From positions 1-32,345 of the forward strand of contig JALRFH010000062.1 in the NCBI GenBank assembly GCA_023253715.1: DNA of 32,345 bases, written 5' to 3'. This DNA comes from Halieaceae bacterium. GTDB taxonomy: Bacteria; Pseudomonadota; Gammaproteobacteria; Pseudomonadales; Halieaceae. Below, piece by piece: positions 1 through 17,672 of the stretch. The notes under the pieces were generated by a model, which worked only from the letters and a program-made list of their open reading frames with translations, was not told where the DNA came from and ran no database searches. Both the position numbers and the translations under genes were made by a program. Numbering within the stretch: position 1 is the first letter of the stretch; each line of letters begins with the position of its first letter.

Positions 1-341
1 CCGAGACTATCAACATCGATTTTACGTTTGATTCATTTGTTGAAGGTAAATCCAACCAGCTTGCTCGTGCTGCAGGCATACAAGTCGGTGAGAACCCTGG
101 TAAAGCCTATAACCCTTTATATATTTACGGTGGTGTAGGTCTGGGTAAAACGCACTTGATGCATGCTGTTGGTAATCTGATCAAACGTGATAATCCAGCG
201 GCTAAAGTACTTTATATGCACTCTGAAAGCTTTGTTGCCGAAATGGTTAAAGCACTGCAACACAATAAGATTGATGAGTTTAAAAAGCGCATGCGTAGCG
301 TTAATGCCTTACTGATTGACGATGTACAGTTCTTCGCTGGT
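1..341 (+). CDS. dnaA: dnaA internal fragment (AAA+ domain), broken at a junction
   Basis: Internal piece of the replication initiator DnaA, which binds oriC and melts DNA in an ATP-dependent way. Reading from base 3, it begins at the linker/AAA+ boundary ([18 protein letters not shown]), then has the Walker A loop [10 protein letters not shown] (about 132-161) and Walker [10 protein letters not shown] (about 309-335). It ends at FFAG. The expected family continuation (KxRSQEEFFHTFN) is absent: from base 342 the frame reads unrelated residues to a stop at 398, and those bases are tonB on the opposite strand. No start codon or domain I lies in the window, so the 5' side is cut by the window edge and the 3' side by the junction. 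Two sampled 60-base lines are about 38% and 43% G+C against about 52% in the tonB side, so it may come from another genome. Identity is secure; whether the join is biological is doubtful. Confidence 0.9.
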
Positions 342-740
342 GATACCGCGCGTTTGAGCGCGACGTGGGTAAATCGGCGCAACTTTTACGATCGGTAAAT
401 ACTCACCGTCACCCGACGACATCCCCGATGAGTTAATCGTGACATCTACCTTGGCGGTAGGTGCCAAATTCACCACATCCACATCCATATCCATATCGAA
501 CTCCAAAGGCTGCATTTCTGGTGGCGGCTCTTCAGGGTCCTCAACTTTCTCTGGCTTAAGCTCTTTGACGTTCACTTCAATTTCTTTGTTGGGAACGACA
601 ATATCGGCAATTTTTCGTGATTTGATTTCTTCTTGCTCGTATTCACGGTCAATTAGGCTCTGCATCACAAAAAACAGGCCGACTGCGACGGGAACCGCTA
701 CCAGCGCGGCTATAATAACCCTCACAATACTATTGCCCAT
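342..740 (-). CDS. tonB: energy transducer TonB, 3'-truncated
   Basis: TonB carries proton-motive energy from ExbB/ExbD in the inner membrane to outer-membrane receptors. The product starts at 740 with one membrane anchor (about residues 5-27), then a charged and proline-containing periplasmic linker ([14 protein letters not shown]). It enters the TonB C-terminal domain at [20 protein letters not shown] (about residues 114-133). That YPxxA...RGI signature should continue into a GYVxVEFTV-type strand and some 70 more residues. Instead the reading passes at 342/341 into antisense dnaA and stops at 309, adding about 10 foreign residues. It is the last gene of the DUF3450-ExbB-ExbB-ExbD-ExbD operon, starting 5 bases after exbD2. 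The short size without a long proline-rich spacer fits TonB2-type proteins. A TPR-protein gene usually follows in such clusters and is missing beyond the break. Confidence 0.85.
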
Positions 741-745
741 CTCGA

Positions 746-1165
746 TTACACCTCATCATCCGTAGAAATACAGGGTGGTGCTGTCAACAGTGGACGCACC
801 TCGTCAATCAGCTCCTCAACCGCATAAGCAGGGGTATCTTGATCCACCTGAATTACAAGGTTGGCTTGCGGAGCCTCTTTTTTAGCCGCTTCGGTTACAC
901 GATTCACGCGATCTAAAGGCACCTTATTTTTGTTGTAGTAAATGTCGCCCTGACCATCTACCGCAAAAATAATCGTCCCTCTTTCACACGCTTCCATAGT
1001 CGAGGCTTGTGGCTTAAACAGTTCAACACCCGGCTCTTTCACGAACGATGACGTCACGATAAAGAAGATCAGCATGATGAATACCACATCAAGCATAGGG
1101 GTTAAGTCGATCTGCCCCTCGTCATTAGCACTGCGACGTCGCGCGGCTTGATCTCTCATGCTCAT
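746..1165 (-). CDS. exbD: biopolymer transporter ExbD, second copy
   Basis: ExbD/TolR-family proton-channel subunit of a TonB energising complex, 139 aa. A short cytoplasmic N-terminus (residues 1-20) leads into one membrane helix (about 22-42) with the family motif DLTPMLDVVFIMLIFFIV. D26 is the candidate essential proton-carrying aspartate. The remainder is a periplasmic domain. It overlaps the preceding exbD by 4 bases, so translation is probably coupled. Compared with the first ExbD it has two cysteines, C60 just after the membrane helix and C132 near the C-terminus, both predicted periplasmic, and a longer acidic tail ending in DDEV. Two consecutive exbD genes are known in TonB2-type clusters, and the copies probably form a heterodimer (inference). 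Confidence 0.93.
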   Translation of the reverse strand: MSMRDQAARRRSANDEGQIDLTPMLDVVFIMLIFFIVTSSFVKEPGVELFKPQASTMEACERGTIIFAVDGQGDIYYNKNKVPLDRVNRVTEAAKKEAPQANLVIQVDQDTPAYAVEELIDEVRPLLTAPPCISTDDEV

Positions 1166-1572
1166 TTTTTACCTCCAGCGCTCGCCCAGTTCACCGCACC
1201 GGCACCCGCTTCACGAGCGGCGTCAGCGACGTCAACCACAGCATTTGCTCGAGCGCCTTTTTCCACCTTAATGGTGACCGCCTGTTCGGGATCACTCGCC
1301 AGCAGACGTTGAATGTTTGCTCGAACAGATCGCACGTCTACACGACGGTTCTCCATCCAAATTTGATTATCGCTGCGAATATTTACCAAAATACTGGTCG
1401 CATCGCTTGGATCCGACTTGGAGTTATCGGGACGATTCACATCGATCCCGGCCTCTTTGATAAAAGAGGCAACAACGATAAAGAAGATCAGCATGATAAA
1501 CACCACATCAAGCATTGGCGTTAGATCAATTTCCGCTCCATCTTCTTCTTTTTGTTTCGCAAGTTTGCGCAT
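1162..1572 (-). CDS. exbD: biopolymer transporter ExbD, first copy
   Basis: ExbD/TolR-family protein, 136 aa, with a cytoplasmic N-terminal segment, one membrane helix (about residues 18-38, motif DLTPMLDVVFIMLIFFIV) and a periplasmic domain to the C-terminus. D22 is the candidate proton-relay aspartate. The helix is nearly identical to that of the next ExbD while the periplasmic parts differ strongly, so the two are paralogues rather than a recent tandem duplication. It lies 30 bases downstream of the short exbB, with a purine-rich AAGGAC upstream of the ATG, and overlaps the next exbD by 4 bases. Role: proton-driven energisation of TonB together with the two ExbB-like proteins of this operon. 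Confidence 0.93.
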   Translation of the reverse strand: MRKLAKQKEEDGAEIDLTPMLDVVFIMLIFFIVVASFIKEAGIDVNRPDNSKSDPSDATSILVNIRSDNQIWMENRRVDVRSVRANIQRLLASDPEQAVTIKVEKGARANAVVDVADAAREAGAGAVNWASAGGKK

Positions 1573-1602
1573 TGGTCGAAAGTCCTTTGTGTCGCCAGAC
1601 CA

Positions 1603-2124
1603 TTAATGATCTGCCGTCAATTGATCCTCAAGTGATTCCTGCTCGCGCTCCGCGATCCTTTGCAAATAGGTATTCGCAAACAAACCGGACAGCGCCGCCA
1701 CCATTCCCGCCATTGTAGGAATTGTTGAACGCTCGACCCCGCCAGCCATGGACTTCGCATCGCCACCACCGGTTACAGCCATTACGTTAAACACTTCGAT
1801 CATACCGGTCACGGTACCCAGTAGACCCAACAGCGGGCACAAGGCAACCATCGTGGTAATGATGGGCATATTGTTGTTAATCACTTCTTTACTCTGCGAC
1901 ACCAAACGCGTGCGTATCTGCTTTGCGTTCCAAGACTGGCGTTCTGCACGACTCTCCCACTTGTCAATCAACAAGCGACGCTCAGCGCGCCAGACGAAGG
2001 TGAAGAACCAAAAACGCTCAAAGATCAGGGTCCACATAACGAACACAAGCATGGCGATCAGCCAGAGTACATTCCCGCCTTTATCCATAAAGGCGAGAAT
2101 GGTTTCAGTAATGCCTCCAGACAT
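1603..2124 (-). CDS. exbB: MotA/TolQ/ExbB proton channel family protein (short ExbB)
   Basis: Polytopic inner-membrane subunit of the ExbB/ExbD motor, 173 aa. Three membrane helices are visible: about 17-42, 88-114 and 132-154. The second holds the family signature ALCPLLGLLGTVTGMIEVF and the third begins at STIPTMAGMVAAL. A charged cytoplasmic loop separates helices 1 and 2. The start is supported by a ribosome site (AGGAG, 7 bases before the ATG) that overlaps the TAG stop of the upstream long exbB, so the two are translationally coupled. Length and topology match the ExbB2 protein of Vibrio-type TonB2 systems. Confidence 0.93.
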   Translation of the reverse strand: MSGGITETILAFMDKGGNVLWLIAMLVFVMWTLIFERFWFFTFVWRAERRLLIDKWESRAERQSWNAKQIRTRLVSQSKEVINNNMPIITTMVALCPLLGLLGTVTGMIEVFNVMAVTGGGDAKSMAGGVERSTIPTMAGMVAALSGLFANTYLQRIAEREQESLEDQLTADH

Positions 2125-2134
2125 AGTCTAGCTC

Positions 2135-3559
2135 CTACTTATGAGACGTCTCGGAGTGCTCGGCAATGATGCCGGTCGCTTGCTCGTTCAGCAGGTGAAT
2201 CACACGCTGCGCACGACCATTTACCAAGGTGTGCAACAAGACCGTTGGGATTGCTACGAGCAGACCAAGAACCGTCGTTACCAATGCGCTCGAAATACCG
2301 CCCGCCATGGCTTTAGGATCACCTGCACCGAAGATCGTAATGGCCTGGAAGGTAATAATCATACCCGTTACCGTACCCAAGAGACCCATCAAAGGTGCCA
2401 CTGCCGCGATGATCTTGAGCAGCGTCAAGCCCGACTCCAGCTTCGGAGTTTCACGCATAACACCTTCTGCCATCTTCAGCTCCAAGGTCTCTGGATCCAT
2501 CGATGGGTTGTCTTCGTGAATTTTCAATACACGACCCAATGGGTTGTTGGTGTTGGCTGAAGACGCTTTCAACTGTGCATTCACCTTGCTTGAAACCAAA
2601 GACAAAGCAATCAAACGGTACACAGCAAGCAGCAGCGCAAACACACCCACCGCGGTAATGGCATAACCCACCGCACCACCTTGATGCCAGCGCTCTTCCA
2701 GCGTGGGCGAATCAATGATGGCGGCTAGGAATGAACCACCGGTGGGTCCAGTTGGGTCAATACCAAACTGATACATACCGCTTGACGCGTTAGCTAAGTC
2801 GGCGGCCCAACCGGTGTATGAACCCGCGGGCTGACGTGGCAATTCGCTCAGGTTACCGTTGTTGTAGGCCAAGTAGTTACCGTTGGTATCGACAATGTTA
2901 AACGCACCCACACGAATCACATCGCGAGGAGCGCGCTCACCTGAGGGCGTAGCGACCTCTGCGGTGAACTTAACGACGTTGCCCGTTTCGGTAATTTCTC
3001 GAAGCAGCTCGTACCATACGCGCTCGATTTCCTCGATGCGAGGCAACTTGTCAGAACCTGACATTTTCGCAATCAGATCTTTCAAGAAACCTTCACGGTT
3101 TGCGTACTGTGAAGACACCAGCGACACTTCGATATTGGAAGACAAGTCCCCTGCCGCCGCAGTCAAGTGTCCGAACAACTCGGTCAAAGCACCCAACTTT
3201 TCTTTCAACTGCTTTTGCTTCGCAGCAATCAACAGCTCGTTGTCTTCAAATTTGTTTTCAAGCTGAGTACTTAACCGCTCTTGACGCTCACGCTCGGCTT
3301 CCGCTTCTTTCAACAGACGCGCCTGATCCGCTTTTGCTTTGGCAAAACGCGCTTCACGAGCTTTGTTCTCTTTGGCGTCGGTTGCCTGGCCCTGCTTAAC
3401 AAACTGGAGCAACTGCTCTAAGTTTGCGGCGGCTTCCGCACGAGGGTCAACTTGTGGTTCTGCGGGGGCCTCGGCTGCATCTTGCGCAAAGGTCACACCT
3501 GAAACGACCAGAGCACCGCCCAAAGTCAGGGCTGCAAAAATTTTATTTAACGCTTTCAT
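2135..3559 (-). CDS. TtpC-like long ExbB (periplasmic coiled coil plus MotA/TolQ/ExbB domain)
   Basis: A 474-aa inner-membrane protein of the TonB2 energising system. Residues 1-25 form a signal peptide ending near TFAQ. Residues about 45-130 are a highly charged, heptad-like coiled coil. A periplasmic domain runs to about 295, and membrane helices are at about 298-322, 380-405 and 423-447. The C-terminal part has the ExbB core, APLMGLLGTVTGMIITFQAI. In Vibrio the equivalent TtpC is needed for TonB2-dependent iron uptake (known for the family). Its ATG overlaps the TAA of the DUF3450 gene by one base (TAATG), which implies translational coupling. It probably bridges the motor to TonB across the periplasm (inference). 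Confidence 0.92.
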   Translation of the reverse strand: MKALNKIFAALTLGGALVVSGVTFAQDAAEAPAEPQVDPRAEAAANLEQLLQFVKQGQATDAKENKAREARFAKAKADQARLLKEAEAERERQERLSTQLENKFEDNELLIAAKQKQLKEKLGALTELFGHLTAAAGDLSSNIEVSLVSSQYANREGFLKDLIAKMSGSDKLPRIEEIERVWYELLREITETGNVVKFTAEVATPSGERAPRDVIRVGAFNIVDTNGNYLAYNNGNLSELPRQPAGSYTGWAADLANASSGMYQFGIDPTGPTGGSFLAAIIDSPTLEERWHQGGAVGYAITAVGVFALLLAVYRLIALSLVSSKVNAQLKASSANTNNPLGRVLKIHEDNPSMDPETLELKMAEGVMRETPKLESGLTLLKIIAAVAPLMGLLGTVTGMIITFQAITIFGAGDPKAMAGGISSALVTTVLGLLVAIPTVLLHTLVNGRAQRVIHLLNEQATGIIAEHSETSHK

Positions 3560-4338
3560 TAGTTAGCCTCCGGTGCAGCTACAGGCATGTTTAGGAGTTC
3601 AATTGTGGCTTGTTTCTTGGCAATACGAACGCCCTTGCGAATCGCAGCAGCGTAATCGCCTGCAGGCAGGTTATCCCAAGACTTGGTGTCGGGATTCCAA
3701 ACACCACTTTCTTCACCATCGGTCGTTTGATAAACCAAAGACACACGACCAATACGCAGGAAGTCGACGTCGCGAGTTACGCCATTGAGTTCGATCGTGT
3801 CGCTGTATGTCTCCATACCGCGACCGTATTGAAGCTCGATATTATAAGCCTCTAATACCTGACGGAATTTTTCTGCCACTGTGATGTCAGATCGGTCGAC
3901 GTTATCGCGCAAAAACTCGATGCGCGCACGACGCTCGTCTAAGTTGAAAGGCACATCCAGCTCAACGAACTGCTCTAGACCGTCGATCATCCGGATAACC
4001 AAAGGCATCATTTGACGCTGAATCACCGTCACTTCATCGATCGAATTATCGATGTCAGCGATACGGCGCTCTTGGTTGTCGATTTGACGCTGCAAACGTG
4101 CGTTGTAGACCTTTAAACCGTCTACTTGCTTCATTACTGTTTTGTAGTCCGTCAGCAGATCACGTGCTTCTTCCGCTAAGCGGTCGATCTTCGCTTGAGA
4201 CTGTTTAGCAGCAGCAGTTTTCTCTTCGCCAACTTTTATGATGGCGTCTAATGTGTTGGCTTGCGATGCTACCGAGCAAAAAGCCCCGGTCGCAACAACA
4301 GTAGCCATCAACACAGATTTTAGTCGATGCGTAGTCAT
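3559..4338 (-). CDS. DUF3450 domain protein, first gene of the TonB2-type operon
   Basis: A 259-aa exported protein. The N-terminus MTTHRLKSVLMATVVATGA through ASQA is a signal peptide of about 28 residues. Residues about 33-110 are a long coiled coil rich in K, Q, E and D, and the rest is a soluble periplasmic domain with the family motif GRVSLVYQTTDG. DUF3450 genes regularly head ttpC-exbB-exbD-tonB clusters in gammaproteobacteria (established context). The biochemical role is not known to me; a periplasmic partner of the TtpC-like ExbB is the natural inference. A candidate sigma70 promoter sits 34-63 bases upstream of the start. No recognisable Fur box was found there, so iron regulation is not shown by sequence. 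Confidence 0.9.
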   Translation of the reverse strand: MTTHRLKSVLMATVVATGAFCSVASQANTLDAIIKVGEEKTAAAKQSQAKIDRLAEEARDLLTDYKTVMKQVDGLKVYNARLQRQIDNQERRIADIDNSIDEVTVIQRQMMPLVIRMIDGLEQFVELDVPFNLDERRARIEFLRDNVDRSDITVAEKFRQVLEAYNIELQYGRGMETYSDTIELNGVTRDVDFLRIGRVSLVYQTTDGEESGVWNPDTKSWDNLPAGDYAAAIRKGVRIAKKQATIELLNMPVAAPEAN

Positions 4339-4371
4339 GAGGGTTGCTTATCCTATAGTCCAACTTGTGTG

Positions 4372-4401
4372 ATTTTAGAATCTGATAAAAAAGGGGCTCA
4401 A
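4372..4401 (-). promoter_or_regulatory. candidate sigma70 promoter for the TonB2-type operon
   Basis: On the minus strand TTGAGC (-35, 4 of 6 matches) and TAAAAT (-10, 5 of 6) are separated by 18 bases, about 34 bases before the DUF3450 start codon. The rest of the 239-base gap 4339-4577 shows no convincing gene, Fur box or strong terminator. Confidence 0.35.
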
Positions 4402-4577
4402 CAAGCTCGCGTTAAACCCCACCGATAACGGTAATCCGTGCCCCCGATTTAAACGTACAACATGGCAATTTTCAATGAAATCTCTCGCACATTTCCAAGT
4501 GTTTTTGCGTTTGTGTAGATCGGTTACACATTTCTCCGCATCAGCCCAGCAAGGTAACACCGGCACCGTATCGGTTT

Positions 4578-5102
4578 TTACTGAGACTCACCATCCTTGC
4601 GCTTATATGTGACAAAATGACAAGAAAATTCATCCTTTTCAGACTGCTGTGGATGCTCGGAAGTCACCGCCTCCCACTGCCCCCAGTCAATGCAATCGAG
4701 CACCGTATCACCCTCGGGCTCAGCATCGATGTGCGTGACGATTAAACGATCCGTGAAAGGCAGTGCTGACGCGTATATTTGCGATCCACCAGCGATAATT
4801 ATTTCGTTCTGGTCGACCGTGCAAAACCGCCGTGCAGCGTCCAGAGCCTGTTCAATACTGGCGCACAAAATCACGCCCTCGGGCAGTTTAGGCTGCCCAG
4901 ACGACACAACGATACATTGCCGGTTCGGCAACAGCCCAGGTAGGGACTCGAAGGTAAGGCGACCCATGATCATGGGCTTTCCTAAAGTAACACGCTTGAA
5001 AAACGCCAAGTCGGTCGGCACATGCCAAGGCAAATCACCTTGACGCCCAATTACACCATTAGCGGCGATCGCAAAAACCGCGGAAACTAAAGGCCTGTTC
5101 AT
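4578..5102 (-). CDS. folA: dihydrofolate reductase
   Basis: Reduces dihydrofolate to tetrahydrofolate with NADPH, regenerating the cofactor oxidised by the neighbouring thymidylate synthase. 174 aa, slightly longer than E. coli FolA. Visible landmarks are the Met20-loop equivalent [18 protein letters not shown] with W26 and the catalytic acid D31 (E. coli W22/D27), the NADPH segment [15 protein letters not shown], and the [10 protein letters not shown] glycine pair. The ATG overlaps the TGA of thyA by 4 bases, so folA is the downstream partner in a coupled thyA-folA pair. The C-terminal tail KRKDGESQ is unremarkable. Confidence 0.97.
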
Positions 5103-5932
5103 ACTGCCACCGCACCCGCGATGTGTGCGTGCGGCTCGTAACCAATGATCTCGAAATCCTCAAACCGATAATCGTAAATAGAATCAGGTTTGCGGATAAT
5201 CTGCAGCGTCGGCAGGGCTCGCGGCTCACGCTCAAGCTGTGTCGCCACCTGCTCAAAATGATTGCTGTAGATGTGCGAATCGCCGGTACTAATAATGACC
5301 TCCCCGGGGAGCAAATCGCATTGCTGACAGAGCATGTGGGTGAGCAATGCCAAACTGGCAAGGTTGTAGGGCAAACCCAGGAACGAATCGCTCGAGCGAA
5401 TGTAGAGCTGGGCAGATAGACGCCCATTAGCCACATAAAACTGATACAAAAGATGACAGGGCGGCAAGGCCATTTTGCCCTGTTTTACGTTGTCTTGCGG
5501 ACTCAAAGTTTCGTCGGGCAAGTACTCGACATTCCAACCGTGGAACAGAATCCGGCGCGAATCAGGCTTATTTTTCAGACAGTCGACAACGTAATCAATT
5601 TGATTCACGCTACCGCCATCGGCGGTTGGCCACGCTCGCCATTGCGCACCATAAATCGGACCTAAGTCCCCCTCTTCGGTCGCCCACTCATCCCAAATTG
5701 ACACACCGTTTTCACGCAACCACGCTGTATTGGTATCACCCCTTAAAAACCAGATCAGCTCGTTCGCAATACTTTTAAAATGCAATTTTTTGGTGGTCAG
5801 AAGCGGAAAACCGTCATTCAAATCGTGCCGAAACTGACGCGCAAATACCGAGCGCGTGCCCGTCCCCGTGCGATCCGATTTATCGACACCCTGCGCCATA
5901 ATGTCCCGCAGCAATTCCAAGTAAACCTTCAT
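5099..5932 (-). CDS. thyA: thymidylate synthase
   Basis: Converts dUMP and methylene-tetrahydrofolate to dTMP and dihydrofolate. 277 aa. The nucleophile is C159 in [11 protein letters not shown]. The substrate-binding arginine region [14 protein letters not shown] lies near the N-terminus, and the dUMP-binding stretch [18 protein letters not shown] and GDSHIYSNH follow the catalytic cysteine. It overlaps folA by 4 bases and starts 10 bases after lgt, giving the order lgt-thyA-folA; lgt-thyA is also adjacent in E. coli. No key residue is missing. Confidence 0.97.
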
Positions 5933-5942
5933 AAATGACGTC

Positions 5943-6746
5943 CTAACCCCGCTGTTTGTTTGACGAGCCGTGTGAATACGCCCACCACAGTAAATACAGA
6001 CCCAAGAGTATCATGGGCACACACAAAATTTGACCTCGCGTCATCCAGCCAAACGCCTGAAACCCCAAATGCGCATCGGGTTCGCGAAAAAATTCAGCAA
6101 GAAAGCGCAAACAGCCATACCCCAAGGCAAACAACCCCGCGGCCGACCAGCGAGGCCGCCGCTGTCGCGTAAACCAGTAGACCACAGCAAACAGGGTTAC
6201 GCCTTCAAGCCCAAACTGATAGAGCTGCGATGGATGCCTGGGTAGTTGCATCGGGTCATTGGGGAACACCATGGCCCAAGGTACGGTGGCCGCACGGCCC
6301 CACAACTCCTGCCCAATAAAATTCCCCAAACGCCCCAGCGCCAAGCCAATAGGCGCAAGTGGTGCGACAAAATCGAGAAGATCCCCCAAGGCCACCTTGC
6401 GTGTCTTGGATAGGTAATACACGGCAGCGATCACACCCAACAACCCACCATGAAAGGACATACCCCCTTCCCACACACGCAAAGCCCAGCTCGGATCGGC
6501 CAACAAGCGATCAGTACCGTAAAACAAGATGTAGCCCAGCCGCCCACCCAACACAATGCCGATGGCTGCGTAAAAAATAAGATCATCGACCCAAGCCTCG
6601 CGCCACACCGAGCCCGGCCGACGGCACTCTCGTTGCGCCAACCACCAAGCGAACGCCAAACCGGCCAAATAGGTCAAGCCATACCAATGTATCTTTAAAG
6701 GCCCTAATTCGAGCGCGACGGGATCGATGGCGGGGTAAGCCAGCAT
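5943..6746 (-). CDS. lgt: prolipoprotein diacylglyceryl transferase
   Basis: Inner-membrane enzyme that attaches diacylglycerol from phosphatidylglycerol to the lipobox cysteine of prolipoproteins, the first step of lipoprotein maturation. 267 aa, close to the pseudomonad length. The product is polytopic (about seven helices) with the Lgt signature [14 protein letters not shown] at residues 138-151 and the essential histidine region GGMSFHGGL (H99). The start is supported by GAGG 8 bases before the ATG. It is the first gene of lgt-thyA-folA. The 88-base gap to the divergent NRDE gene (6747-6834) must hold promoters for both directions, but I cannot assign them confidently. Confidence 0.97.
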
Positions 6747-6834
6747 AGTGAAAGCCTCGTTAAAAAGCGCCTAGGGTAGCACCCCTGCGCCAAAGATTGG
6801 TGTAACCTGTGTGTTTTTAGCAGGATAAACTGCC

Positions 6835-7629
6835 ATGTGCCTTATTGCTATCGCGTGGCAAGCGCACCGTCATCTGCCACTGGTTATTGTTGCCAATCGC
6901 GACGAATTTTACCAGCGCGAAACGCTCGCCATGCATTATTGGCCGGACCAACCTGGCCTGCTCGCAGGCCGGGACTTGCAGGCCGGCGGTACCTGGCTGG
7001 GCGTCAATCAGCGGGGGCGCTTCGCAGCCATAACGAATGTCCGCGAGACAGCGCCGCAAAACACAAGCACCTCACGAGGCAACCTCCCTGGCCTGTGGCT
7101 GAACACCCACGTCACCAGCAGCGAGCTTCTCAAAACCCTGGAACAAAGTGCGTCTCTGTACAGCGGTTACAATGTGTTATTTGGCGATCAGACTCAGTTG
7201 ATTTGGGCCAGCAATCGAGGTCCTAAGGGCTTTGAGCATCGCCACCTCGCCAGCGGTATTTATGGACTGGGCAATGCCTCGCTGAACACGCCGTGGCCAA
7301 AACTACGCCTAGCCAAACAGCGCCTAGCCAAACAACTTCAACTCGACCAACCCAGCCTGGAAGATTTTAGCTGGGTCACAGCCGACACCTGCACCCAAGA
7401 CGATCTCAGCAACTTTGCCCCTACCGACATGGAGGAAAGCTGGCTGCGGGCCTTGAGCGCGCAATGGATCAAGACGCCCACCTACGGCACCAGAGCACAG
7501 ACCCTTATTACCATGAACAATCAGCGAGATTTGACTTGCCACGAACGTTCGATCGATGCCAGCGGCAATGTCAGCAGCGAAAGAGCGTTTGCGTTTACGG
7601 TGCCAGGCCCACCGCCTCGTCCAGACTGA
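6835..7629 (+). CDS. NRDE (TANGO2) family protein
   Basis: A 264-aa protein of the NRDE/TANGO2 family. The diagnostic N-terminus is complete: MCLIAIAW, then VIVANRDEFYQRET with N21-R22-D23-E24, and GGTWLGVNQRGRFAAITNVR. The conserved Cys2 follows the initiator methionine, as in Ntn-hydrolase-like folds, but the bacterial function is not established. Eukaryotic TANGO2 has been linked to lipid/haem handling and Golgi organisation. AGGA lies about 10 bases before the ATG. The gene sits between lgt and ptsP, which are neighbours in E. coli, and on the opposite strand to both. Its last 35 bases overlap the end of ptsP in a convergent arrangement, so the tail TVPGPPPRPD is encoded antisense to the ptsP terminus. 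Confidence 0.88.
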   Translation: MCLIAIAWQAHRHLPLVIVANRDEFYQRETLAMHYWPDQPGLLAGRDLQAGGTWLGVNQRGRFAAITNVRETAPQNTSTSRGNLPGLWLNTHVTSSELLKTLEQSASLYSGYNVLFGDQTQLIWASNRGPKGFEHRHLASGIYGLGNASLNTPWPKLRLAKQRLAKQLQLDQPSLEDFSWVTADTCTQDDLSNFAPTDMEESWLRALSAQWIKTPTYGTRAQTLITMNNQRDLTCHERSIDASGNVSSERAFAFTVPGPPPRPD

Positions 7630-9898
7630 CAGGCACAAATTGTTGCATCCCGCGCTCAGACAAGAACGCCCCAAGCGCTGCTTGAATTTGCTCTGAGTGA
7701 TCCATGTCCACAACGTCATTCAGCAAGTCGCGAGCATCATCCAGCAAGACCGAGCGCAGCGCCTTTTTCACCTTGGGCAAACTGATCGAGTTCATCGACA
7801 AAGTGTCATAACCCATTGCCGCCAATAACACGGCAGCACTGGGATCACCCGCCAATTCACCACAGATACTGACAGGCTTACCTTCTGCCTGAGCCCCTTC
7901 GGCCACCAACTTTAAGGCCTGGATCACGGCGGGATGGTAGGCGTGATACAAATCTGCCACCCGCGCATTATTGCGGTCCACCGCCAGCAAATATTGCGTT
8001 AGGTCATTCGAGCCTACACTCAAAAAATCCACTTTCCTGGCCAAAGCTCGCGCTTGATAAACCGCCGCAGGCACTTCAACCATAACGCCAACCGGTGGTC
8101 GAGAGCCCAGCTCATACCCCTCCTGCAGCAGCTCTTGATAACAACGCTCCACCAGGTCTAAGGCCTCTTGCAACTCAGACATGTTACTGACCATGGGCAA
8201 CATAATACGCAAATTACCCAGACCTGCGTTTGCCTTCATCATCGCTCGAACTTGGGCGAGGAAGATTTCGGGATGGTCGAGAGTCACCCGCAAGCCACGC
8301 CATCCTAGAAAAGGGTTTGCCTCGTCAATCGGAAAATAGGGCAAAGCTTTGTCACCCCCAATGTCCAAGGTCCGCATGGTCACTGCTTTGGGCGCAAAAG
8401 CCTCGAGCTGCTGTCGGTAAAGCTGTCGCTGCTCTTCCTCGCTGGGAAAGCGCTCTTGCATCAAAAATGGCACTTCCGTTCGGTATAAACCCACCCCTTC
8501 CGCGCCGCGGTCGAGCGAAATCGCCACATCCGCCATCAAGCCCGTGTTGACATACAGGGGAATGCGTCGACCATCGGCTGTTTCGCAATCCACATCGCGT
8601 AAGGACTCCAGGTCTTTGCTTAAAGCCGCCTCTTGTGCCACCAGCTCTTCGAAGCGCTCCAACAGCATGGTGGTCGGATTTAAATGCACGACGCCGTTAT
8701 AGCCATCGATAATAACGGTCTTACCTTCAAGACGCGTATAGGGTAAATCCACTGCGCCCATCAGAGTGGGAATACCCATCGCTCGCGCTAAAATTGCGAC
8801 ATGAGAATTACCCGAACCTCGGACAGATATTAGGCCAACCAGGTTTTCTCGGGGCACCTCGCCCAGCATCGACGCGGTCAGTTCCTCACCTACCAACACC
8901 ACACGATCAGAGTACTCTCGCTTGTCATGCGCCTCTGCTTGCAGATAGCTGAGTACTCGCGTCCCCAGATCTTTGACATCAACCGCACGCTCGCGCAGAT
9001 AAGAGTGCTCCATTTGTTCAAAGTGACGAATATGTTCAATCATCACCTGACTCAAAGCACCCTGCGCCCAATTGCCCGCTTTAATGAGCGTTGCGACCTC
9101 AGCGCCAATCGTGGAATCATCCAAAATACTCAAATAAACGTCGAACAGCGCCCGATCTTCAGCGTTTAACTGTTCAGCCAAATTCTTTGACACCGCACGC
9201 ACATCAGCTCGTACCGACTCCAAAGCTTGTTTAAACGCACGCAACTCTGCACGCCGGTCGCTCGTTTGTTTCTTAGGCACTGCGTAAAGATCAGCAACAG
9301 GGGACACCACCGCCACCTGACCCACGGCCACGCCCGGTGACCCACCGATACCGGTGACCCGAGTCGACCCCTGAGGGCTGGCGCCGGCATCAGCATATTC
9401 TTCCTGAATTGATCCGGTCACCTGAGCGTGCGCGATAACGCCCGCCAACTGCGCGGACATCGTCACTAAAAACGCTTCATCACTCTCGTCAAATCGCCGC
9501 CGCTGAGCTTGCTGCACCACGAGCACGCCCAACACAATCTTGTGGTGAATAATCGGCACACCTAGGAAGGCATGAAAAGGCTCCTCACCAATACCAGATA
9601 GCAATTGGAAGTGTGGGTGTTCAGAGGCGTTATCAAGATTCACCGGCTCTTCGCGAGTGGCCACCAAACCCACGAGACCCTCATCGTGCGCAAGACTTAA
9701 CAAGCCGATCTGATTTTTGTTAAGACCCTCGGTCGCTCGAAACACCAAGCGATTGGTTACTGGATCACGCAAATACACCGAGCACACCTGCGTCCCCATG
9801 GCGTCGCGTACCCGGGTCACGATGATTTTAAGCGCCTCTTCGAGCGATTCGGCGGCGTTTACACGTTGCACAATACTGCGCAACATCTCCAGCATCAT
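7595..9898 (-). CDS. ptsP: phosphoenolpyruvate-protein phosphotransferase PtsP (EI-Ntr)
   Basis: Enzyme I of the nitrogen PTS. It takes phosphate from PEP and passes it to NPr and EIIA-Ntr, a regulatory rather than sugar-transport cascade. 767 aa in family order: GAF domain (about 15-155, FLGVPIIHHKIVLGVLVVQQ), PEP-utilising N-domain (about 180-310), mobile phosphohistidine domain with H366 in SGNSHVAILARAMGIPT, and PEP-binding TIM barrel (about 420-720) with VGSNDLTQYLLAVDRNN. The start has two ATGs (MMLEML); the second equals the usual family start, so residue 1 is uncertain by one. It follows rppH after 7 bases, as in E. coli. The 3' end overlaps the convergent NRDE gene by 35 bases. ptsN and ptsO are not in this window. 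Confidence 0.96.
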   Translation of the reverse strand: MMLEMLRSIVQRVNAAESLEEALKIIVTRVRDAMGTQVCSVYLRDPVTNRLVFRATEGLNKNQIGLLSLAHDEGLVGLVATREEPVNLDNASEHPHFQLLSGIGEEPFHAFLGVPIIHHKIVLGVLVVQQAQRRRFDESDEAFLVTMSAQLAGVIAHAQVTGSIQEEYADAGASPQGSTRVTGIGGSPGVAVGQVAVVSPVADLYAVPKKQTSDRRAELRAFKQALESVRADVRAVSKNLAEQLNAEDRALFDVYLSILDDSTIGAEVATLIKAGNWAQGALSQVMIEHIRHFEQMEHSYLRERAVDVKDLGTRVLSYLQAEAHDKREYSDRVVLVGEELTASMLGEVPRENLVGLISVRGSGNSHVAILARAMGIPTLMGAVDLPYTRLEGKTVIIDGYNGVVHLNPTTMLLERFEELVAQEAALSKDLESLRDVDCETADGRRIPLYVNTGLMADVAISLDRGAEGVGLYRTEVPFLMQERFPSEEEQRQLYRQQLEAFAPKAVTMRTLDIGGDKALPYFPIDEANPFLGWRGLRVTLDHPEIFLAQVRAMMKANAGLGNLRIMLPMVSNMSELQEALDLVERCYQELLQEGYELGSRPPVGVMVEVPAAVYQARALARKVDFLSVGSNDLTQYLLAVDRNNARVADLYHAYHPAVIQALKLVAEGAQAEGKPVSICGELAGDPSAAVLLAAMGYDTLSMNSISLPKVKKALRSVLLDDARDLLNDVVDMDHSEQIQAALGAFLSERGMQQFVPVSLDEAVGLAP

Positions 9899-9905
9899 AG
9901 CTTTT

Positions 9906-10430
9906 TTAATCCTGCTGCAAAGTCACGTCTACTGGCGCGCAATCCGCAAGTTCCTGCATCGCCAGCCGGTATACTTCTCGTTTAAAATGTATCACCTGAC
10001 CAATGGGATGCCAGTAGTCCACCCACTCCCAATGATCAAACTCTGGCGCACCATGACCATCCAATTGAATGGCGTCATCAGTTGCCAACAATCGTAACAA
10101 AAACCATTTTTGCTTTTGACCCACGCATTTCGGCCCGGGACCTTTACGCCAGTACTGCCGCGGCAAATGATACCGCAACCAGCGATCTGTTTGCCCCAGT
10201 ATCTCTACGTGGTGCGCCTGTAATCCAACCTCTTCTTGCAATTCTCGATACAAGGCCTGTTCAGGGGTCTCGCCTGAATCAATCCCTCCTTGCGGAAATT
10301 GCCAACCGTTTTTACCGCCAATACGACGGGCCCAAAACACTTTGCCGAGGTCGTTACAGATGATAATGCCGACATTCGGCCGAAAACCATCTTCGTCAAT
10401 CACGACTCGCCTCTTTTCCGTAGATTTCAT
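9906..10430 (-). CDS. rppH: RNA pyrophosphohydrolase
   Basis: Nudix hydrolase that removes pyrophosphate from 5'-triphosphorylated mRNA, exposing it to RNase E. 174 aa. The N-terminal [12 protein letters not shown] and [16 protein letters not shown] match RppH, and the full Nudix box is at residues 48-70 (G48, E54, R62-E63, E66-E67, G69). The downstream WRYHLP-type segment appears as [12 protein letters not shown], followed by GQKQKWFLL. It is upstream of ptsP with a 7-base gap, presumably one transcript. A TATAGT -10-like hexamer lies about 16 bases upstream on the minus strand with no clear -35. Confidence 0.96.
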
Positions 10431-10504
10431 GTTAACCTTGCCACTATAGCACGGAGTCGGGTTTTCGCGACTGCCTGATCGACATTCTCACCTAAAGGCA
10501 TACT

Positions 10505-11164
10505 ATGGCACTGGCAATTTTTGACCTTGATAACACGCTCTTAGGCACTGACTCTGACCACCAATGGGGCGAGTATCTTTGCGATCAGGGCTTGGTAGCA
10601 GCCGACGCATTCCGCGCTCGCAACGATCAATTTTACCAAGATTACAAATTAGCAAGGTTGGATATTCAAGCGTACCTGCGTTTCGTTCTCAGCACGATTA
10701 AAGGGCTGAGCACGCGCGAAGTGACGGCGCTTCACACTGCGTTCTTCCGGACCCATATAGCGGCTCACATGCTGCCTCGAGCCCAAGCTTGCATTGATCA
10801 GCATCGCGCCAAAGGCGATACCTGCTTGGTGATTACCGCCACCAGCCGATTCATTACTGAGCCAATTGTCAGAGCCTTTGGTATCGATGAATTAATTGCA
10901 TCAGAAGCGGAAATCGTGGACGGTCGCTACACCGGCGAGCCCCAGGGCACACCCAGCTTTGCGGAAGGGAAGGTCGCGCGCCTCGAGGAATGGTTGCGAG
11001 GCAAGCCAGAGCTACAATCTACCGAGCACTACTTCTACAGCGATTCTCGCAATGACTTACCTCTTCTCGAGCAAGTACAGCACCCCATCGCAGTCGATCC
11101 CGATGACACCTTGCGGCAGATCGCGACCGAGCGCGGCTGGGGAATTTTAAGTTTTAGAGACTAG
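10505..11164 (+). CDS. HAD-IB family phosphatase (SerB-like; possible histidinol-phosphatase)
   Basis: A 219-aa HAD hydrolase of subfamily IB. Motif I is FDLDNTLLG, with nucleophile D7 and acid D9. Motif II (VITATSRF) is near the middle, and motif III/IV is the K of [10 protein letters not shown] and [13 protein letters not shown] helical cap lies between motifs I and II. In Pseudomonas the homologous gene also lies next to rppH-ptsP, and I recall PA0335 being reported as a histidinol-phosphate phosphatase; transferring that role here is inference. It is divergent from rppH. The last bases CTAG (11161-11164) supply its TAG stop and, on the other strand, the TAG stop of gcvH. Confidence 0.85.
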
Positions 11165-11547
11165 TCCTCACAACTGGCGTCGTATTGCTCTGCGGTGAGC
11201 AGCTCATCAATACTGCTGGGATCGTCTAGACGCATTTTAAAGAACCAACCATCACCGTAGGGATCTTCATTAATCACTTCAGGGTTGTCTTCGAGATTGT
11301 CGTTGACAGCAATAATTTCGCCCCCAATTGGGGCATAAATGTCTGAGGCCGCTTTGACCGATTCCACGACACCCGCTTCGTCGCCAGCGCCTAGCTGTGC
11401 ACCTACCTCGGGGAGCTCAACAAACACCACATCACCCAGGGCCTCTTGTGCATGATTGGTGATACCGATGGTCGCTGTGCCGTCGTCTTCAACGCGGATC
11501 CACTCGTGACTGCTAACGTAACGTAATTCTGCTGGTGATTGGCTCAT
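11161..11547 (-). CDS. gcvH: glycine cleavage system H protein (lone gcvH)
   Basis: Lipoyl carrier protein that shuttles the aminomethyl group between the P, T and L proteins of glycine cleavage. 128 aa, normal length. The lipoylation segment is [15 protein letters not shown] with K65 as modified lysine. The N-terminal [12 protein letters not shown] and [14 protein letters not shown] match the family. In E. coli ubiI is followed by gcvT-gcvH-gcvP; here only gcvH remains at that position, and gcvT and gcvP are not in the window. A purine run GGGGGAAAA precedes the ATG, and a promoter candidate lies in the 53-base gap after ubiI, so it may be transcribed on its own. Confidence 0.97.
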
Positions 11548-11572
11548 GGTTTTCCCCCAATTAGAAAAGCGT

Positions 11573-11600
11573 ATTCTACCCTAGACCTACAGAAAGACAA
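11573..11600 (-). promoter_or_regulatory. candidate sigma70 promoter for gcvH
   Basis: On the minus strand TTGTCT (4 of 6) and TAGAAT (5 of 6) are 16 bases apart, 25 bases before the gcvH ATG and immediately after the ubiI stop codon. This would uncouple gcvH from the ubiquinone operon upstream. Confidence 0.4.
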
Positions 11601-12797
11601 TCAGGCGAGACCCATTGCGATTCTGGCCACTTTACGTTTTACAGGACTTAGCTTGTTAAACGTCGACATTCCCGCATTGCGCACCCAGCGCACGAGAGGA
11701 TTAGGCTGATCAAATAAGCGAACAAAACCCTCCATGGCCCCAGCAACGACCAAATTATCGGTTTTACGGCGACGCTGATAACGCGCCAACACCAGAGAAG
11801 ACCCCAGATCTAAACCCCTGTTGGAGGCTCGGCTCAACTCTTCGGCCAGCACCGCCACATCGGCAAAGCCTAGATTAATTCCCTGCCCCGCTAAAGGGTG
11901 AATAGTATGCGCAGCATCGCCCACCAACACGCAACGCTTGGCTTGATAGTTCATCGCATGACGCTGACGCAAAGGCACACAGGTACGCTGTGATACCGCC
12001 TTGATCGCACCTAACTGAATCTCACTTTTTTGCTCAAGCGCCTGTGCGAACTCACGGTCACCAAGCTGCATCAAGCGCGCGGCCTCGTCCTCGTGGGCTG
12101 ACCATACAATCGATACAAATTGCCCACTTGGATGACGTAGGGGCAAAAATGCGAGGGGACCCGTGCGCAAAAACCACTGTCGCGCCACCTGCTCGTGCGA
12201 CCGCTCAGTTTGAACCGTCGCAACAATCGCAGACTGGCCGTAGGGCCATTCGACCACGTCGACCCCCATGTATTGCCGAATTGTCGATAGCGCGCCATCG
12301 GCTCCAACCAAGAGCTGGGCACACCAAGTTTGACCGGACTTTAATTCAACTCGCACCTCAGATTCGCTGGTTTCAATGGCATCGATTTCTTCTAACATCA
12401 ACGTCCGCACGCGACTCTGTTTCAATTTGTCATGCAAAGTGGCCAAGAGTACAGAGTTCTCTACGATCGCACCCAAGTCATCGACTTGCAGCTCAGCGGC
12501 ATCAAATTGCACCAAGCCTGTTCCCTCGCCGTCCCACACCTGCATCGACTGATACGGTTGACGACGAATTGCCTGCAAATCCAGCCCCTGCTCACCCAGA
12601 AACCGCCAAGAATTGGCAGCCACCGCACTCACTCGAGTATCATAATCGTGTACCGTTTGGGGCTCCTCGCTATGTCTCTCAGCCCATGAGCCGCGCTCGA
12701 TAATCGCCACATCAACGCCTTGACCGTCTAAGGCGAGGGCGAGGCTAGCGCCCGCCAAGCCGCCACCAACAATCACAACATCACAGTAATTAGACAT
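11601..12797 (-). CDS. ubiI: FAD-dependent ubiquinone hydroxylase UbiI/VisC type
   Basis: Flavoprotein monooxygenase of the UbiH/UbiF/COQ6 family; UbiI introduces the C5 hydroxyl in aerobic ubiquinone synthesis. About 398 aa from the chosen ATG. Features are the N-terminal FAD dinucleotide fold CDVVIVGGGLAGASLALAL, DTRVSAVAANSWRFL, the VGADGALSTIRQ segment and the second FAD motif GDAAHTIHPLAGQGINLG. A TTG codon at 12812 would extend it by five residues, but the ATG at 12797 has AGGG 5 bases upstream and overlaps ubiH by only 8 bases, so I prefer it. It is the third flavoprotein/peptidase gene of pepP-ubiH-ubiI, as in E. coli. UbiI versus UbiF is not fully certain from sequence; gene order favours UbiI. 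Confidence 0.88.
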   Translation of the reverse strand: MSNYCDVVIVGGGLAGASLALALDGQGVDVAIIERGSWAERHSEEPQTVHDYDTRVSAVAANSWRFLGEQGLDLQAIRRQPYQSMQVWDGEGTGLVQFDAAELQVDDLGAIVENSVLLATLHDKLKQSRVRTLMLEEIDAIETSESEVRVELKSGQTWCAQLLVGADGALSTIRQYMGVDVVEWPYGQSAIVATVQTERSHEQVARQWFLRTGPLAFLPLRHPSGQFVSIVWSAHEDEAARLMQLGDREFAQALEQKSEIQLGAIKAVSQRTCVPLRQRHAMNYQAKRCVLVGDAAHTIHPLAGQGINLGFADVAVLAEELSRASNRGLDLGSSLVLARYQRRRKTDNLVVAGAMEGFVRLFDQPNPLVRWVRNAGMSTFNKLSPVKRKVARIAMGLA

Positions 12798-14004
12798 AGT
12801 CGCCCTCGCCAATAGCGCCCGCCGCGATCGCTGTAAAACGCTGCTTAAACGCAGGTATCACGTCCATCAAACCCAAAGCAAAATTGCGCACAGCACCCAC
12901 CACCCCAGTGTACTGAAACAGGTCAGGCAGTAGATCACTGGCATTAACCGTACGCCATTGATCCACAGCTCTACGTTGCGCATAGGACGACAGCGCCGCG
13001 CTCGAAAAATCATTGTTGTGCACGCATTGTGACAGCACATCGGTCAGGCTTCGAATATCCCGCACCGATAAATTAAACCCTTGGCCGGCAACAGGGTGCA
13101 GGGTATGCGCTGCGTTACCCAAGACGACGATACCCGCCCGCACTTGCTCGATACGATGCATCATCTGTAGAGGATAAACGCTGCGCGTACCCACTTGTTC
13201 GATACGCCCCAATCGATAGCCAAACTGAGCTTCTAAACTTCTGCAAAATTCCCGATCCGTGAGCGCCATGAGCTCATCAATTTGGTTCTTAGGCGCAGTC
13301 CAGACTAAGGCGCAACGATTTACGCCATCCGCGCTGCCTAGAGGTAGCATCGCCATCGGCCCCTGTTCGCTGAAACGCTCATACGCACAGTGACCGTGAT
13401 GCATCGCGGTAGCGACATTGGCAATAAGCGCGCTGTTCGCGTAGGACTTAGACTCACGCAACATACCCAAACGCTGCGCCAAAGCAGATTGGCCACCGTC
13501 GGCAATAATCAGACAGTCCAGAAACATCGCCTCGCCCTGAGCGTCAAACAGTTCTACGCCGCAAGATTTGGGATTGATATGCTTAATTTCTCTCGGCGCA
13601 TGCACGCGTACTCGACTGTGCTTGAGTCGCCCAGCGAGCGCCTCGCCCAGAAGCCGATTTTCGATAACACCGCCGAGCTGCGGCCAGTTGACTTGCTCGG
13701 CGGTCAACACAGCCGAACCCATGCGCCCCTTATTAGAAACGTGAATAGACTGAATTGGACAAGCTTGCCGAGATATCTCCAACAGTCCTAGACCGCTCAT
13801 GTACCCTAAGGTGTCAAAGCTTAAAGCCGTCGATCGGTCGTCAAAAGACGGCTGAGACAAAGGGCGCTCTAAGTCGAGTGGCGCAACATCAAAAACATGA
13901 ATAGCACAGCTCGCCGAAAAAGCATCCTCGAAGGCCAAAGCGGCAAGCAAACCCACCATGCCACCGCCGACAATGCCGATGTTTGGTCTTATTGATTCAT
14001 CCAC
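12790..14004 (-). CDS. ubiH: 2-octaprenyl-6-methoxyphenol hydroxylase UbiH
   Basis: Flavin monooxygenase of aerobic ubiquinone biosynthesis, acting on the C1 position. 404 aa. The N-terminal FAD fold is IGIVGGGMVGLLAALAF, the UbiH-type segment is FDDRSTALSFDTL, and the second FAD motif is GNAAHTLHPVAGQGFNLSVRD, with the asparagine typical of UbiH rather than the aspartate of UbiI. It overlaps pepP by 16 bases upstream and ubiI by 8 bases downstream, consistent with one coupled operon. The two hydroxylases here are clear paralogues. No truncation is seen. Confidence 0.93.
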   Translation of the reverse strand: MDESIRPNIGIVGGGMVGLLAALAFEDAFSASCAIHVFDVAPLDLERPLSQPSFDDRSTALSFDTLGYMSGLGLLEISRQACPIQSIHVSNKGRMGSAVLTAEQVNWPQLGGVIENRLLGEALAGRLKHSRVRVHAPREIKHINPKSCGVELFDAQGEAMFLDCLIIADGGQSALAQRLGMLRESKSYANSALIANVATAMHHGHCAYERFSEQGPMAMLPLGSADGVNRCALVWTAPKNQIDELMALTDREFCRSLEAQFGYRLGRIEQVGTRSVYPLQMMHRIEQVRAGIVVLGNAAHTLHPVAGQGFNLSVRDIRSLTDVLSQCVHNNDFSSAALSSYAQRRAVDQWRTVNASDLLPDLFQYTGVVGAVRNFALGLMDVIPAFKQRFTAIAAGAIGEGDYV

Positions 14005-15302
14005 AACTCGATCTCTTCAATCGTTTTAGGGGCCAGCTGAGTCAGCACTTCGGGGCCATTTTCACCAATCAGAACATCGTCTTCAATTCGGATACCAATG
14101 CCGCGCCAACATTCATTCACGCTGGTGTTGTCAGCAGCAATGTAAATCCCAGGCTCTACGGTTGTTACCATACCGGCCCGCAAATCGCGCCAGTTCCCGT
14201 TTCGCTGGTAATCGCCCACGTCGTGAACATCAAGCCCCAGCCAATGCCCAACACGATGCATGTAGAACGACTGATAGGCTTTGACTTCAATCAAGTCTTC
14301 CACGCGTCCTTGCAAAATACCCAGCTCTGACAAACCTTCGGTGATCACTCGCACGCTAGCATCGTGACTGGCTTGCCACGGTAGGCCCACCTGCAATTGC
14401 TCGATCGCGGCTTGCTGGGCCTGCAACACGATATTGTAGACAGCTCTCTGCTCTGGGCTAAACCGACCGCTCACTGGGAAGGTTCGGGTTACGTCGGCCG
14501 CATACATTTGGTACTCGCAACCGGCATCGATCAGCACCAACTCCCCATCGCGCAGACATCGACTGTTTTTGTCGTAATGCAAAGTGCAGGTATTTGGCCC
14601 ACTTCCAACGATGGGTGCATAAGCCTGCTCACGTGCGCCGTGTCGACCAAATACATACTGCAACTCGGCCTCCAACTGGTACTCATACACACCGGGAGCA
14701 GCCGCTCGCATAGCCGCTTTGTGGCCTGCGACCGTAATTTCAGCAGCCTTGCGCATCACAGCAAGTTCGGCTAAGTCCTTGATCAGACGTTGCTCGTGCA
14801 GCAGACGATGCAAATCAATCAAATCGCCCGGAGCCAAACGTAAACTCGAAGCATGCTGACGCAAATGCGCCAAAATACTCAGCACCCGCTGGTCAAAATC
14901 GGACCTGAGGCCGACCGAGTAATACACGTGCTCGCGCCCCTCCATTAAGCCCGGCAAAATGTCATCGATATCGTCCAGAGGAAAAGCATCGTCAAAGCCG
15001 TAGTCACTGACTGCGCGCTCAGGACCAATTTGCTCGCCCTCCCATAAGGCTGTTTTGGGATCGGGCTCGGCACAAAACAAAATGGCTTCGCCATGTTGAC
15101 GCCCGGGAACCAATACGATCAGCGCATCAGGCTCATCGAACCCGCTGAGGTACCAGAAATCGCTGTCTTGGCGAAACCGGAAGTGGGTATCACGACTTCG
15201 AATTTTTAGCGAAGCTGCAGGCACTAAGGCTACCGCATTGTCTAACATTGCGGCCATTAAGCGCTGTCGGCGGGCGGTATAATTTACAGAAGACATGAGC
15301 AT
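13989..15302 (-). CDS. pepP: Xaa-Pro aminopeptidase
   Basis: Manganese metallopeptidase removing N-terminal residues before proline. About 437 aa, the E. coli PepP length. The N-terminal non-catalytic domain contains HFRFRQDSDFWYLSGFDEP. The pita-bread domain shows all metal ligands: two aspartates in LIDAGCEY and AADVTRTFP, the histidine in HRVGHWLGLDVHD, and glutamates in TTVEPGIY and GIGIRIEDD. The start is ambiguous between ATG 15302 and ATG 15296 (MSSVNYT); CTGAG upstream fits the second slightly better. It starts 9-15 bases after ygfB and overlaps ubiH by 16 bases. Confidence 0.96.
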   Translation of the reverse strand: MLMSSVNYTARRQRLMAAMLDNAVALVPAASLKIRSRDTHFRFRQDSDFWYLSGFDEPDALIVLVPGRQHGEAILFCAEPDPKTALWEGEQIGPERAVSDYGFDDAFPLDDIDDILPGLMEGREHVYYSVGLRSDFDQRVLSILAHLRQHASSLRLAPGDLIDLHRLLHEQRLIKDLAELAVMRKAAEITVAGHKAAMRAAAPGVYEYQLEAELQYVFGRHGAREQAYAPIVGSGPNTCTLHYDKNSRCLRDGELVLIDAGCEYQMYAADVTRTFPVSGRFSPEQRAVYNIVLQAQQAAIEQLQVGLPWQASHDASVRVITEGLSELGILQGRVEDLIEVKAYQSFYMHRVGHWLGLDVHDVGDYQRNGNWRDLRAGMVTTVEPGIYIAADNTSVNECWRGIGIRIEDDVLIGENGPEVLTQLAPKTIEEIELWMNQ

Positions 15303-15311
15303 GACTCAGTA

Positions 15312-15896
15312 TTAGTGCCAGATACGCTCGTGCTCATCTTCCACAGAGAGTTCGTCTTCGTCGAGCGCATAGGTGGAGTACAAATTCAGGACAACCACTC
15401 GAACGTATTCCAGCAGTTCAAAAAAATCATTCTCTTGCTCATCGAAATCGTCGAAGTCGCTCACCTCGACTCGGGCGATTTGAGCGAGGTCTCTGAGAAT
15501 CTCTGCTGACTCCGTAGTCACCTGATCCGATTGCGTGACGCCTGCAGCAAAACCCTTGAGGAACCCCTCGCACCACAAAGCTAAACCTTCCGAGCGGATC
15601 TCCAATTCGTCGTCATCGTCAGGCACTAGAGGCGAAAATCCATAGTCCGGATCACACAAGGCGCGCAAACTCGCCGCGGCCGCCTGTTCGGTGGCAACCA
15701 TCAAATCCCCAGTAATCGACTCTTTTAGGGCGTGCCCCATCGCCGCCAACAAATCGTCCTCCCGCAGCCCCGAGACTAACAGACCCACCACGCAGCCGTG
15801 CCATTCGGATGGCGACAAATCCACGCCCTCCATCAAAAACAGATCAGCGACCTGATCGAAGTCACTGGCCAGCACTTCGTCACTTTCTATCCACAT
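15312..15896 (-). CDS. ygfB: UPF0149 family protein YgfB
   Basis: A 194-aa acidic protein of the UPF0149/YecA-like family (E. coli YgfB 192 aa). Family landmarks are the PSEWHGCVVGLLVSG segment, WCEGFLKGFAAG near residue 105, and a C-terminal VRVVVLNLYSTYALDE stretch. In Pseudomonas YgfB has been linked to repression of an alternative lytic/amidase response; the function here is unknown. It heads ygfB-pepP-ubiH-ubiI and is divergent from the TIGR02449-zapA genes, the order seen widely in gammaproteobacteria. AAGG lies 9 bases before the ATG. Confidence 0.9.
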   Translation of the reverse strand: MWIESDEVLASDFDQVADLFLMEGVDLSPSEWHGCVVGLLVSGLREDDLLAAMGHALKESITGDLMVATEQAAAASLRALCDPDYGFSPLVPDDDDELEIRSEGLALWCEGFLKGFAAGVTQSDQVTTESAEILRDLAQIARVEVSDFDDFDEQENDFFELLEYVRVVVLNLYSTYALDEDELSVEDEHERIWH

Positions 15897-15932
15897 AAAA
15901 TACTACCTTGTCGCAACACGCTCCTGTGCGCG

Positions 15933-15961
15933 TTGACCTAAAACGATGTCCCTACTATAGT
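15933..15961 (+). promoter_or_regulatory. sigma70 promoter for the TIGR02449-zapA operon
   Basis: TTGACC (5 of 6) and TATAGT (5 of 6) are separated by exactly 17 bases. Expected transcription start is near 15968, about 20 bases before the ATG at 15989. The position rules out the longer TTG-initiated reading that would begin at 15908. Confidence 0.75.
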
Positions 15962-15988
15962 AACCGAGAATTCATCGGTATACCGCAA

Positions 15989-16198
15989 ATGCCTTCACAT
16001 AAACCCGAAGCCCTAGAGCAGAAAATCGACCAGCTGATTGCCCTGTGCAAAGAGCTCAACGCCGAAAACCAGATGCTACTGGAACAACGTAGCAGTTGGT
16101 ATCGTGAGCGACAAACCTTGATCGAGCAGAACCAAGCTGTCAAAAATAAAGTCTCTAGCGTTTTAGCGAAATTACAAGCGATGGAGCGCAGCGCGTGA
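15989..16198 (+). CDS. TIGR02449 family small coiled-coil protein (ZapB-like)
   Basis: A 69-aa protein that is almost wholly a coiled coil: LEQKIDQLIALCKEL, then NQMLLEQRSSWYRERQTLIEQN and a final helix ending in AKLQAMERSA. It matches the TIGR02449 small-protein family found immediately upstream of zapA in many gammaproteobacteria. The protein looks like ZapB in size and heptad pattern, and a division-related role with ZapA is inferred from linkage only. A TTG at 15908 in the same frame would add 27 residues but lies upstream of the promoter, so ATG 15989 is chosen. No strong ribosome site is visible. Its TGA overlaps the zapA GTG by 4 bases. Confidence 0.82.
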   Translation: MPSHKPEALEQKIDQLIALCKELNAENQMLLEQRSSWYRERQTLIEQNQAVKNKVSSVLAKLQAMERSA

Positions 16199-16524
16199 AC
16201 AAGCCCTCAGGCGTCACTATCAGCCTGCTCGACAAGCAGTATCAGATCGCTTGCCCTGACGAAGAGCGCGAGGACCTCACGCTCTCGGCACGCTACCTGG
16301 ACCAACAAATGCGCAACATCAAAGCCTCCGGCAAAGTGGTCGGCCTTGATCGTATCGCCATTATGGCTGCGCTCAATATTAGTCACGAACTACTCAAACT
16401 CAGTCGCGAACACAAAGCCTCTTTAGGGCAGGCGCAAGACTCGGTCGACACGGCCTCGTCGGCCAAACTGTGCGAGAAAATCGAAGAAGCGCTGTATGAG
16501 CTACGTCAACTAAAGATTAATTAA
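16195..16524 (+). CDS. zapA: cell division protein ZapA
   Basis: Widely conserved FtsZ-ring stabiliser that bundles FtsZ filaments. 109 aa, GTG start in a GTGA overlap with the preceding gene. The N-terminal globular part has VTISLLDKQYQIACPDEE followed by LSARYLDQQMRNIKASGK and GLDRIAIMAALNISHELL, the core ZapA signature. The C-terminal half is a charged helix for the coiled-coil dimer. It lies directly upstream of the 6S RNA gene, the arrangement conserved from E. coli to Pseudomonas. Confidence 0.95.
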   Translation: MNKPSGVTISLLDKQYQIACPDEEREDLTLSARYLDQQMRNIKASGKVVGLDRIAIMAALNISHELLKLSREHKASLGQAQDSVDTASSAKLCEKIEEALYELRQLKIN

Positions 16525-16546
16525 TTCGCGGTATCGTTGCCGCGAA
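16525..16546 (+). terminator. 7-bp hairpin between zapA and ssrS
   Basis: TTCGCGG and CCGCGAA flank an 8-base loop one base after the zapA stop and just upstream of the ssrS -10. There is no T-tract, so it is either a weak terminator/3'-end stabiliser or part of ssrS control. Confidence 0.35.
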
Positions 16547-16551
16547 TCGGT

Positions 16552-16557
16552 TATACT
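16552..16557 (+). promoter_or_regulatory. -10 element of ssrS
   Basis: TATACT lies 7 bases before the inferred 5' end of 6S RNA (16564). No convincing -35 is visible at the usual distance. Confidence 0.6.
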
Positions 16558-16563
16558 TAGGAC

Positions 16564-17620: not shown

Positions 17621-17672
17621 GACTTAACCCACTTCCTAATATCGGCTCCTCTCTGACGGAGGGCTCGCTTGT

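Follow-up and report, generated by a model that had tools for sequence, protein, structure and literature searches.

The first 341 bases of the window, a 32,345-nucleotide stretch that is the entire contig C90 of a Halieaceae draft genome (2.70 Mb spread over 250 contigs, with completeness of 83.3% and contamination of 2.65%), very probably belong to the dnaA gene of another gammaproteobacterium and have been wrongly joined to a tonB operon, so that we are dealing with a chimeric contig end and not with a feature of the organism. This was also the reading favoured by a first-pass annotation made from the letters alone, and it draws its support from the different closest relatives of the two sides and from contig C202 of this genome, on which tonB continues. 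The features that bear on this reading are collected in Table 1.

Table 1. Features at the two ends of the window, with the evidence for each
Position	Strand	Feature	Evidence
1..341	+	Internal dnaA piece assigned to a foreign source, 113 codons from base 3, ATPase domain	Bac_DnaA, 158 bits; identity to G678
339..341	.	GGT shared by both sources	G678 dnaA, G004 tonB and window compared
339..740	-	tonB, start codon at 740, cut after RGIT, TonB_C domain absent	Reading frame, comparison
412..523	.	112 bases, exact reverse complement of the first 112 bases of C202	Own-genome search
746..1165	-	ExbD/TolR family protein	PF02472, 76 bits
1162..1572	-	ExbD/TolR family protein, second copy	PF02472, 97 bits
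1603..2124	-	MotA/TolQ/ExbB proton channel protein	PF01618, 75 bits
2135..3559	-	Longer MotA/TolQ/ExbB protein	PF01618, 106 bits
3559..4338	-	DUF3450 protein	PF11932, 290 bits
32205..32345	.	Right contig end, exactly 141 bases identical to the left end of C36	Sequence comparison

Results

The dnaA piece is bounded by the contig end on its left and by the junction with tonB on its right. Bases 3-341 of the forward strand encode 113 DnaA residues without a stop, ending in FFAG at 341, and their match to Bac_DnaA (PF00308) spans profile positions 2-110 of 162, which makes this part of the ATPase domain alone and not an intact dnaA. Over the 113 residues the encoded protein is 68-70% identical to its counterparts in three congeners, whereas those congeners are 91-97% identical to one another. 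The same comparison made as a local alignment (107 residues) gives 72-74%, and the nucleotide identities of the dnaA side to the three genomes are 66, 69 and 73%. Judged by these identities, the piece is not from the window's genus. The bin's own dnaA (the bin is G000) was not found: its sole strong Bac_DnaA match is the foreign piece, another match lies on C183 with 24 bits (the cut-off being 23), and a search of the genome for Bac_DnaA_C gave no match at E <= 0.001. Since the bin is 83% complete, the missing gene is unremarkable.

The first-pass annotation had reasoned that the piece looks foreign because its G+C content is low, and this argument fails. The low content itself is real: the piece has 41.9% G+C, sampling 1584 stretches of 341 bases from the rest of the window turned up none so low, its six 60-base lines range from 38.3 to 48.3%, and the window as a whole stands at 52.6%. 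The two values sampled earlier in dnaA hold (38.3% for bases 1-60 and 43.3% for 121-180), but the figure of about 52% given for tonB does not, as bases 342-740 have 48.4%. The corresponding stretch of dnaA is, however, poor in G+C in the congeners too. It has 42.5% in G004 against 52.3% in the 55 kb around that genome's tonB, where 35 of 2735 sampled stretches are as low; it has 44.3% in G002 against 50.7% in the 56 kb around tonB; and for G001 the comparison is shorter, with 44.0% in 241 bases of dnaA and 46.8% in the surrounding 8 kb. Low G+C is thus uninformative on foreignness here and we rejected it as evidence; the conclusion of a foreign origin is grounded in sequence identity, not in composition.

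The source of the piece was sought in several sets of genomes. The first set held 117 genomes, namely the window's own and 116 relatives; with the window excluded, the best E-value for the dnaA side belonged to G079, from another family of the order (72% nucleotide identity), and the second to G043, from the window's own family (76% over 226 bases). A scan of named genomes gave at most 77% amino acid identity over the best segment among the best 80 matches. The piece matched 249 of 369 genomes in a sample of the class, the top one by E-value at 74% nucleotide identity, and the stronger matches there lay outside the window's order. A DnaA tree (90 distinct rows of 112, 113 columns, many forks unresolved) groups the window's piece with G256 and G368, both from one family of another order, with support of 100/97, and places the congeners among Halieaceae, apart from the window's piece. 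That the family labelled f1 is Halieaceae we infer from the named Halieaceae rows among the f1 genomes in the tree.

This placement preceded the discovery of G678, which stood far ahead at 87% nucleotide identity when the family of G368 was searched (141 of 210 genomes matching, with the runner-up at 74%). G678 is a draft of 1.4 Mb in 170 contigs, 76% complete, from another order of the same class, Gammaproteobacteria, and it agrees with bases 3-341 at 296 of 339 nucleotides and, in the encoded protein, at 112 of 113 residues. The DnaA reading of its gene extends beyond the point at which the window's breaks off, and when the 6 kb around its dnaA were compared with the window's genome, bases 3-341 were the sole matching DNA.

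A plasmid or phage origin was considered and rejected. A 600-base query matches 14 plasmid and 5 phage records at 60-80% identity, and no record covers 80% of it; all five phage rows, and all eight of the plasmid rows listed (8 of 14), match inside query bases 10-340. Two phage records, MG065686.1 (L139, Campylobacter phage A18a) and MG065691.1 (A11a), each of about 174 kb, contain a dnaA-like stretch whose score and query range equal those of two E. coli records among the plasmids. The entry for A18a carries the label UNVERIFIED, and perhaps both records contain bacterial DNA. Among the relatives, two had a pair of dnaA matches on separate contigs, G044 (C125 and C158) and G116 (C12 and C308); these are perhaps mixed bins.

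At the junction, the first-pass annotation had DnaA intact through FFAG to 341 and TonB, on the reverse strand, intact down to RGI from 342, and both readings are confirmed. TonB continues with one further residue, T (bases 339-341), and then diverges from C202 and from G004. On the dnaA side, all 102 aligned homologues have K directly behind the last matching residue, and the window has D, supplied by a tonB codon. The junction reads GCTGGTAAA in the dnaA of G678, TCCGGTGAT in the tonB of G004 and GCTGGTGAT in the window. As GGT occurs in both sources, the switch could lie anywhere from 338/339 to 341/342; the earlier description of a base-precise join at 341/342 must therefore be relaxed by three bases, while its statement that no spacer intervenes stands.

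The other side of the junction has quite different affinities. Bases 339-1600 are 87, 85 and 81% identical in nucleotides to three congeners in the set of 117 genomes, and collinearity with G004 extends over window bases 339-16745 (81%) and 17202-32173 (78%). A fourth congener, G003 (73% complete), had no match to the dnaA side or to the tonB side. Between the two collinear blocks, some 456 window bases (16746-17201) have no aligned counterpart in G004, in which the spacing is almost equal. The taxonomic comparison proposed in the first-pass annotation gives different answers for the two sides: the closest organism on the left is G678, at 87%, and leads to another order, whereas from base 339 onwards the closest are congeners, at 81-87%.

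No Pfam family matched the part of tonB at 342-740. A search of the window's own genome with bases 342-1600 found C202, which overlaps the window within tonB (Table 1) and beyond the overlap encodes the TonB C-terminal domain (TonB_C, 57 bits) and a 445-residue protein that starts 14 bases past the tonB stop and matches TPR families. The parts of tonB and the TPR gene are adjacent, in the same order as on C202, in G004, G002 and G001. C202 is itself collinear with G004 over 3-15067 and 15571-18393 (75-77%), as far as the compared stretch extends. Because C202 carries both the tonB C-terminus and the TPR gene, neither is to be called missing from the organism, which is what the first-pass annotation had cautioned. 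Near tonB, no dnaA match occurs in the stretches compared, which span 55 kb in G004, 56 kb in G002, the 4.7 kb contig of G001 and 20,000 of the 20,172 bases of C202; in G004 the two genes lie about 0.4 Mb apart, if its single contig is a circle.

Further observations concern the contig ends. A default MEGAHIT run finishes at k=141, and the 141-base overlap with C36 at the right end fits what a de Bruijn assembly at that k would give. The overlap with C202 has 112 bases, not 141, and the simple k=141 picture leaves it unexplained. Bases 412-523 are identical to C202 and, over 110 aligned bases, 79% identical to G004. Of the 70 sites at 342-411, 16 differ from C202 and 3 from G004, so that two allele types meet at 411/412. 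Patches as close to G004 are uncommon in the window but not unique (82 of 3135 sampled 70-base stretches). The contig end at 342-523 suggests mixed strains, or else recombination, and C202 may be of a different strain from this contig end.

Discussion

We propose that bases 1-341 would derive from the chromosome of a different gammaproteobacterium, a relative of G678, and that the two organisms were presumably sampled together. The join to the tonB operon would then be artificial, made in the library or during assembly, probably through a chimeric molecule of the library, or a chimeric read, whose extension ran on into the other organism. The three bases shared at the join are too few to confuse an assembly graph, which favours a chimeric molecule or read over an assembler led astray by a repeat; repeat-induced misassembly is not favoured, with GGT alone common to both sources. 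The gene that was cut also has its continuation elsewhere in the assembly, on C202, with the qualification that bases 342-411 are a different allele from C202.

The alternative is a real insertion in a minority strain, since illegitimate recombination can produce a sharp junction at which three bases are shared. Horizontal transfer would have brought a foreign dnaA piece into tonB, joined illegitimately at GGT, truncating tonB and breaking the tonB-TPR pair, and the allele difference between C202 and the adjoining part of tonB at 342-411 is in favour of this reading. We consider this very unlikely. The same assembly and three congeners have the arrangement intact, the foreign piece appears solely as a fragment of a core gene that runs off the contig end and has its left flank outside the contig, and a 36-base pattern of the junction had no exact match in viral_contigs, a collection that may omit records near the window's genome. 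It is extremely improbable that the genome's own dnaA was relocated beside tonB, for although the bin holds no other strong DnaA match and the piece resembles congener dnaA genes in G+C, the former may simply reflect the incompleteness of the bin, and a protein so far from the congeners and at all but one residue identical to that of an organism from another order argues strongly against such a rearrangement, short of a replacement of dnaA by a foreign copy.

We therefore return to the chimeric contig end and to what it means for curation. Neither a dnaA of this species nor the position of its origin should be read from bases 1-341, and a loss of tonB or of its TPR partner should not be recorded. 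A dip in G+C alone is poor ground for calling a piece foreign. The case resembles interspecies chimeric contigs from metagenomes in that sides with closest relatives in different orders abut at a contig end and that the continuation of tonB sits on another contig; it differs from those of the kind that form at long shared repeats, as the join here shares three bases.

The operon to which the piece was joined has a recognizable layout of its own. Upstream of tonB stand, in order, a DUF3450 gene, two genes with MotA/TolQ/ExbB matches and two with ExbD matches, the latter doubled side by side at 746-1572. In the TonB2-type arrangement, exbB2 and exbD2 follow one another between ttpC2 and tonB2. 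By analogy with TtpC and TtpB of Vibrio, the longer MotA/TolQ/ExbB protein at 2135..3559 may be TtpC-like on place and family, and the DUF3450 protein at 3559..4338 may be TtpB-like on place. A TonB_C domain followed by a TPR gene, as a TonB2-type operon would have, is found on C202 and not in the window, and the order is upheld in the three congeners. The TonB2-type operon of Vibrio vulnificus has six genes in all; it opens with ttpB2, which lies upstream of ttpC2, and closes with ttpD2, which lies downstream of tonB2 (PMC6957404). With C202 included, the operon studied here resembles the Vibrio one by family, running from DUF3450 through a long ExbB-like protein, ExbB, ExbD and TonB to TPR, and departs from it in having two ExbD genes.
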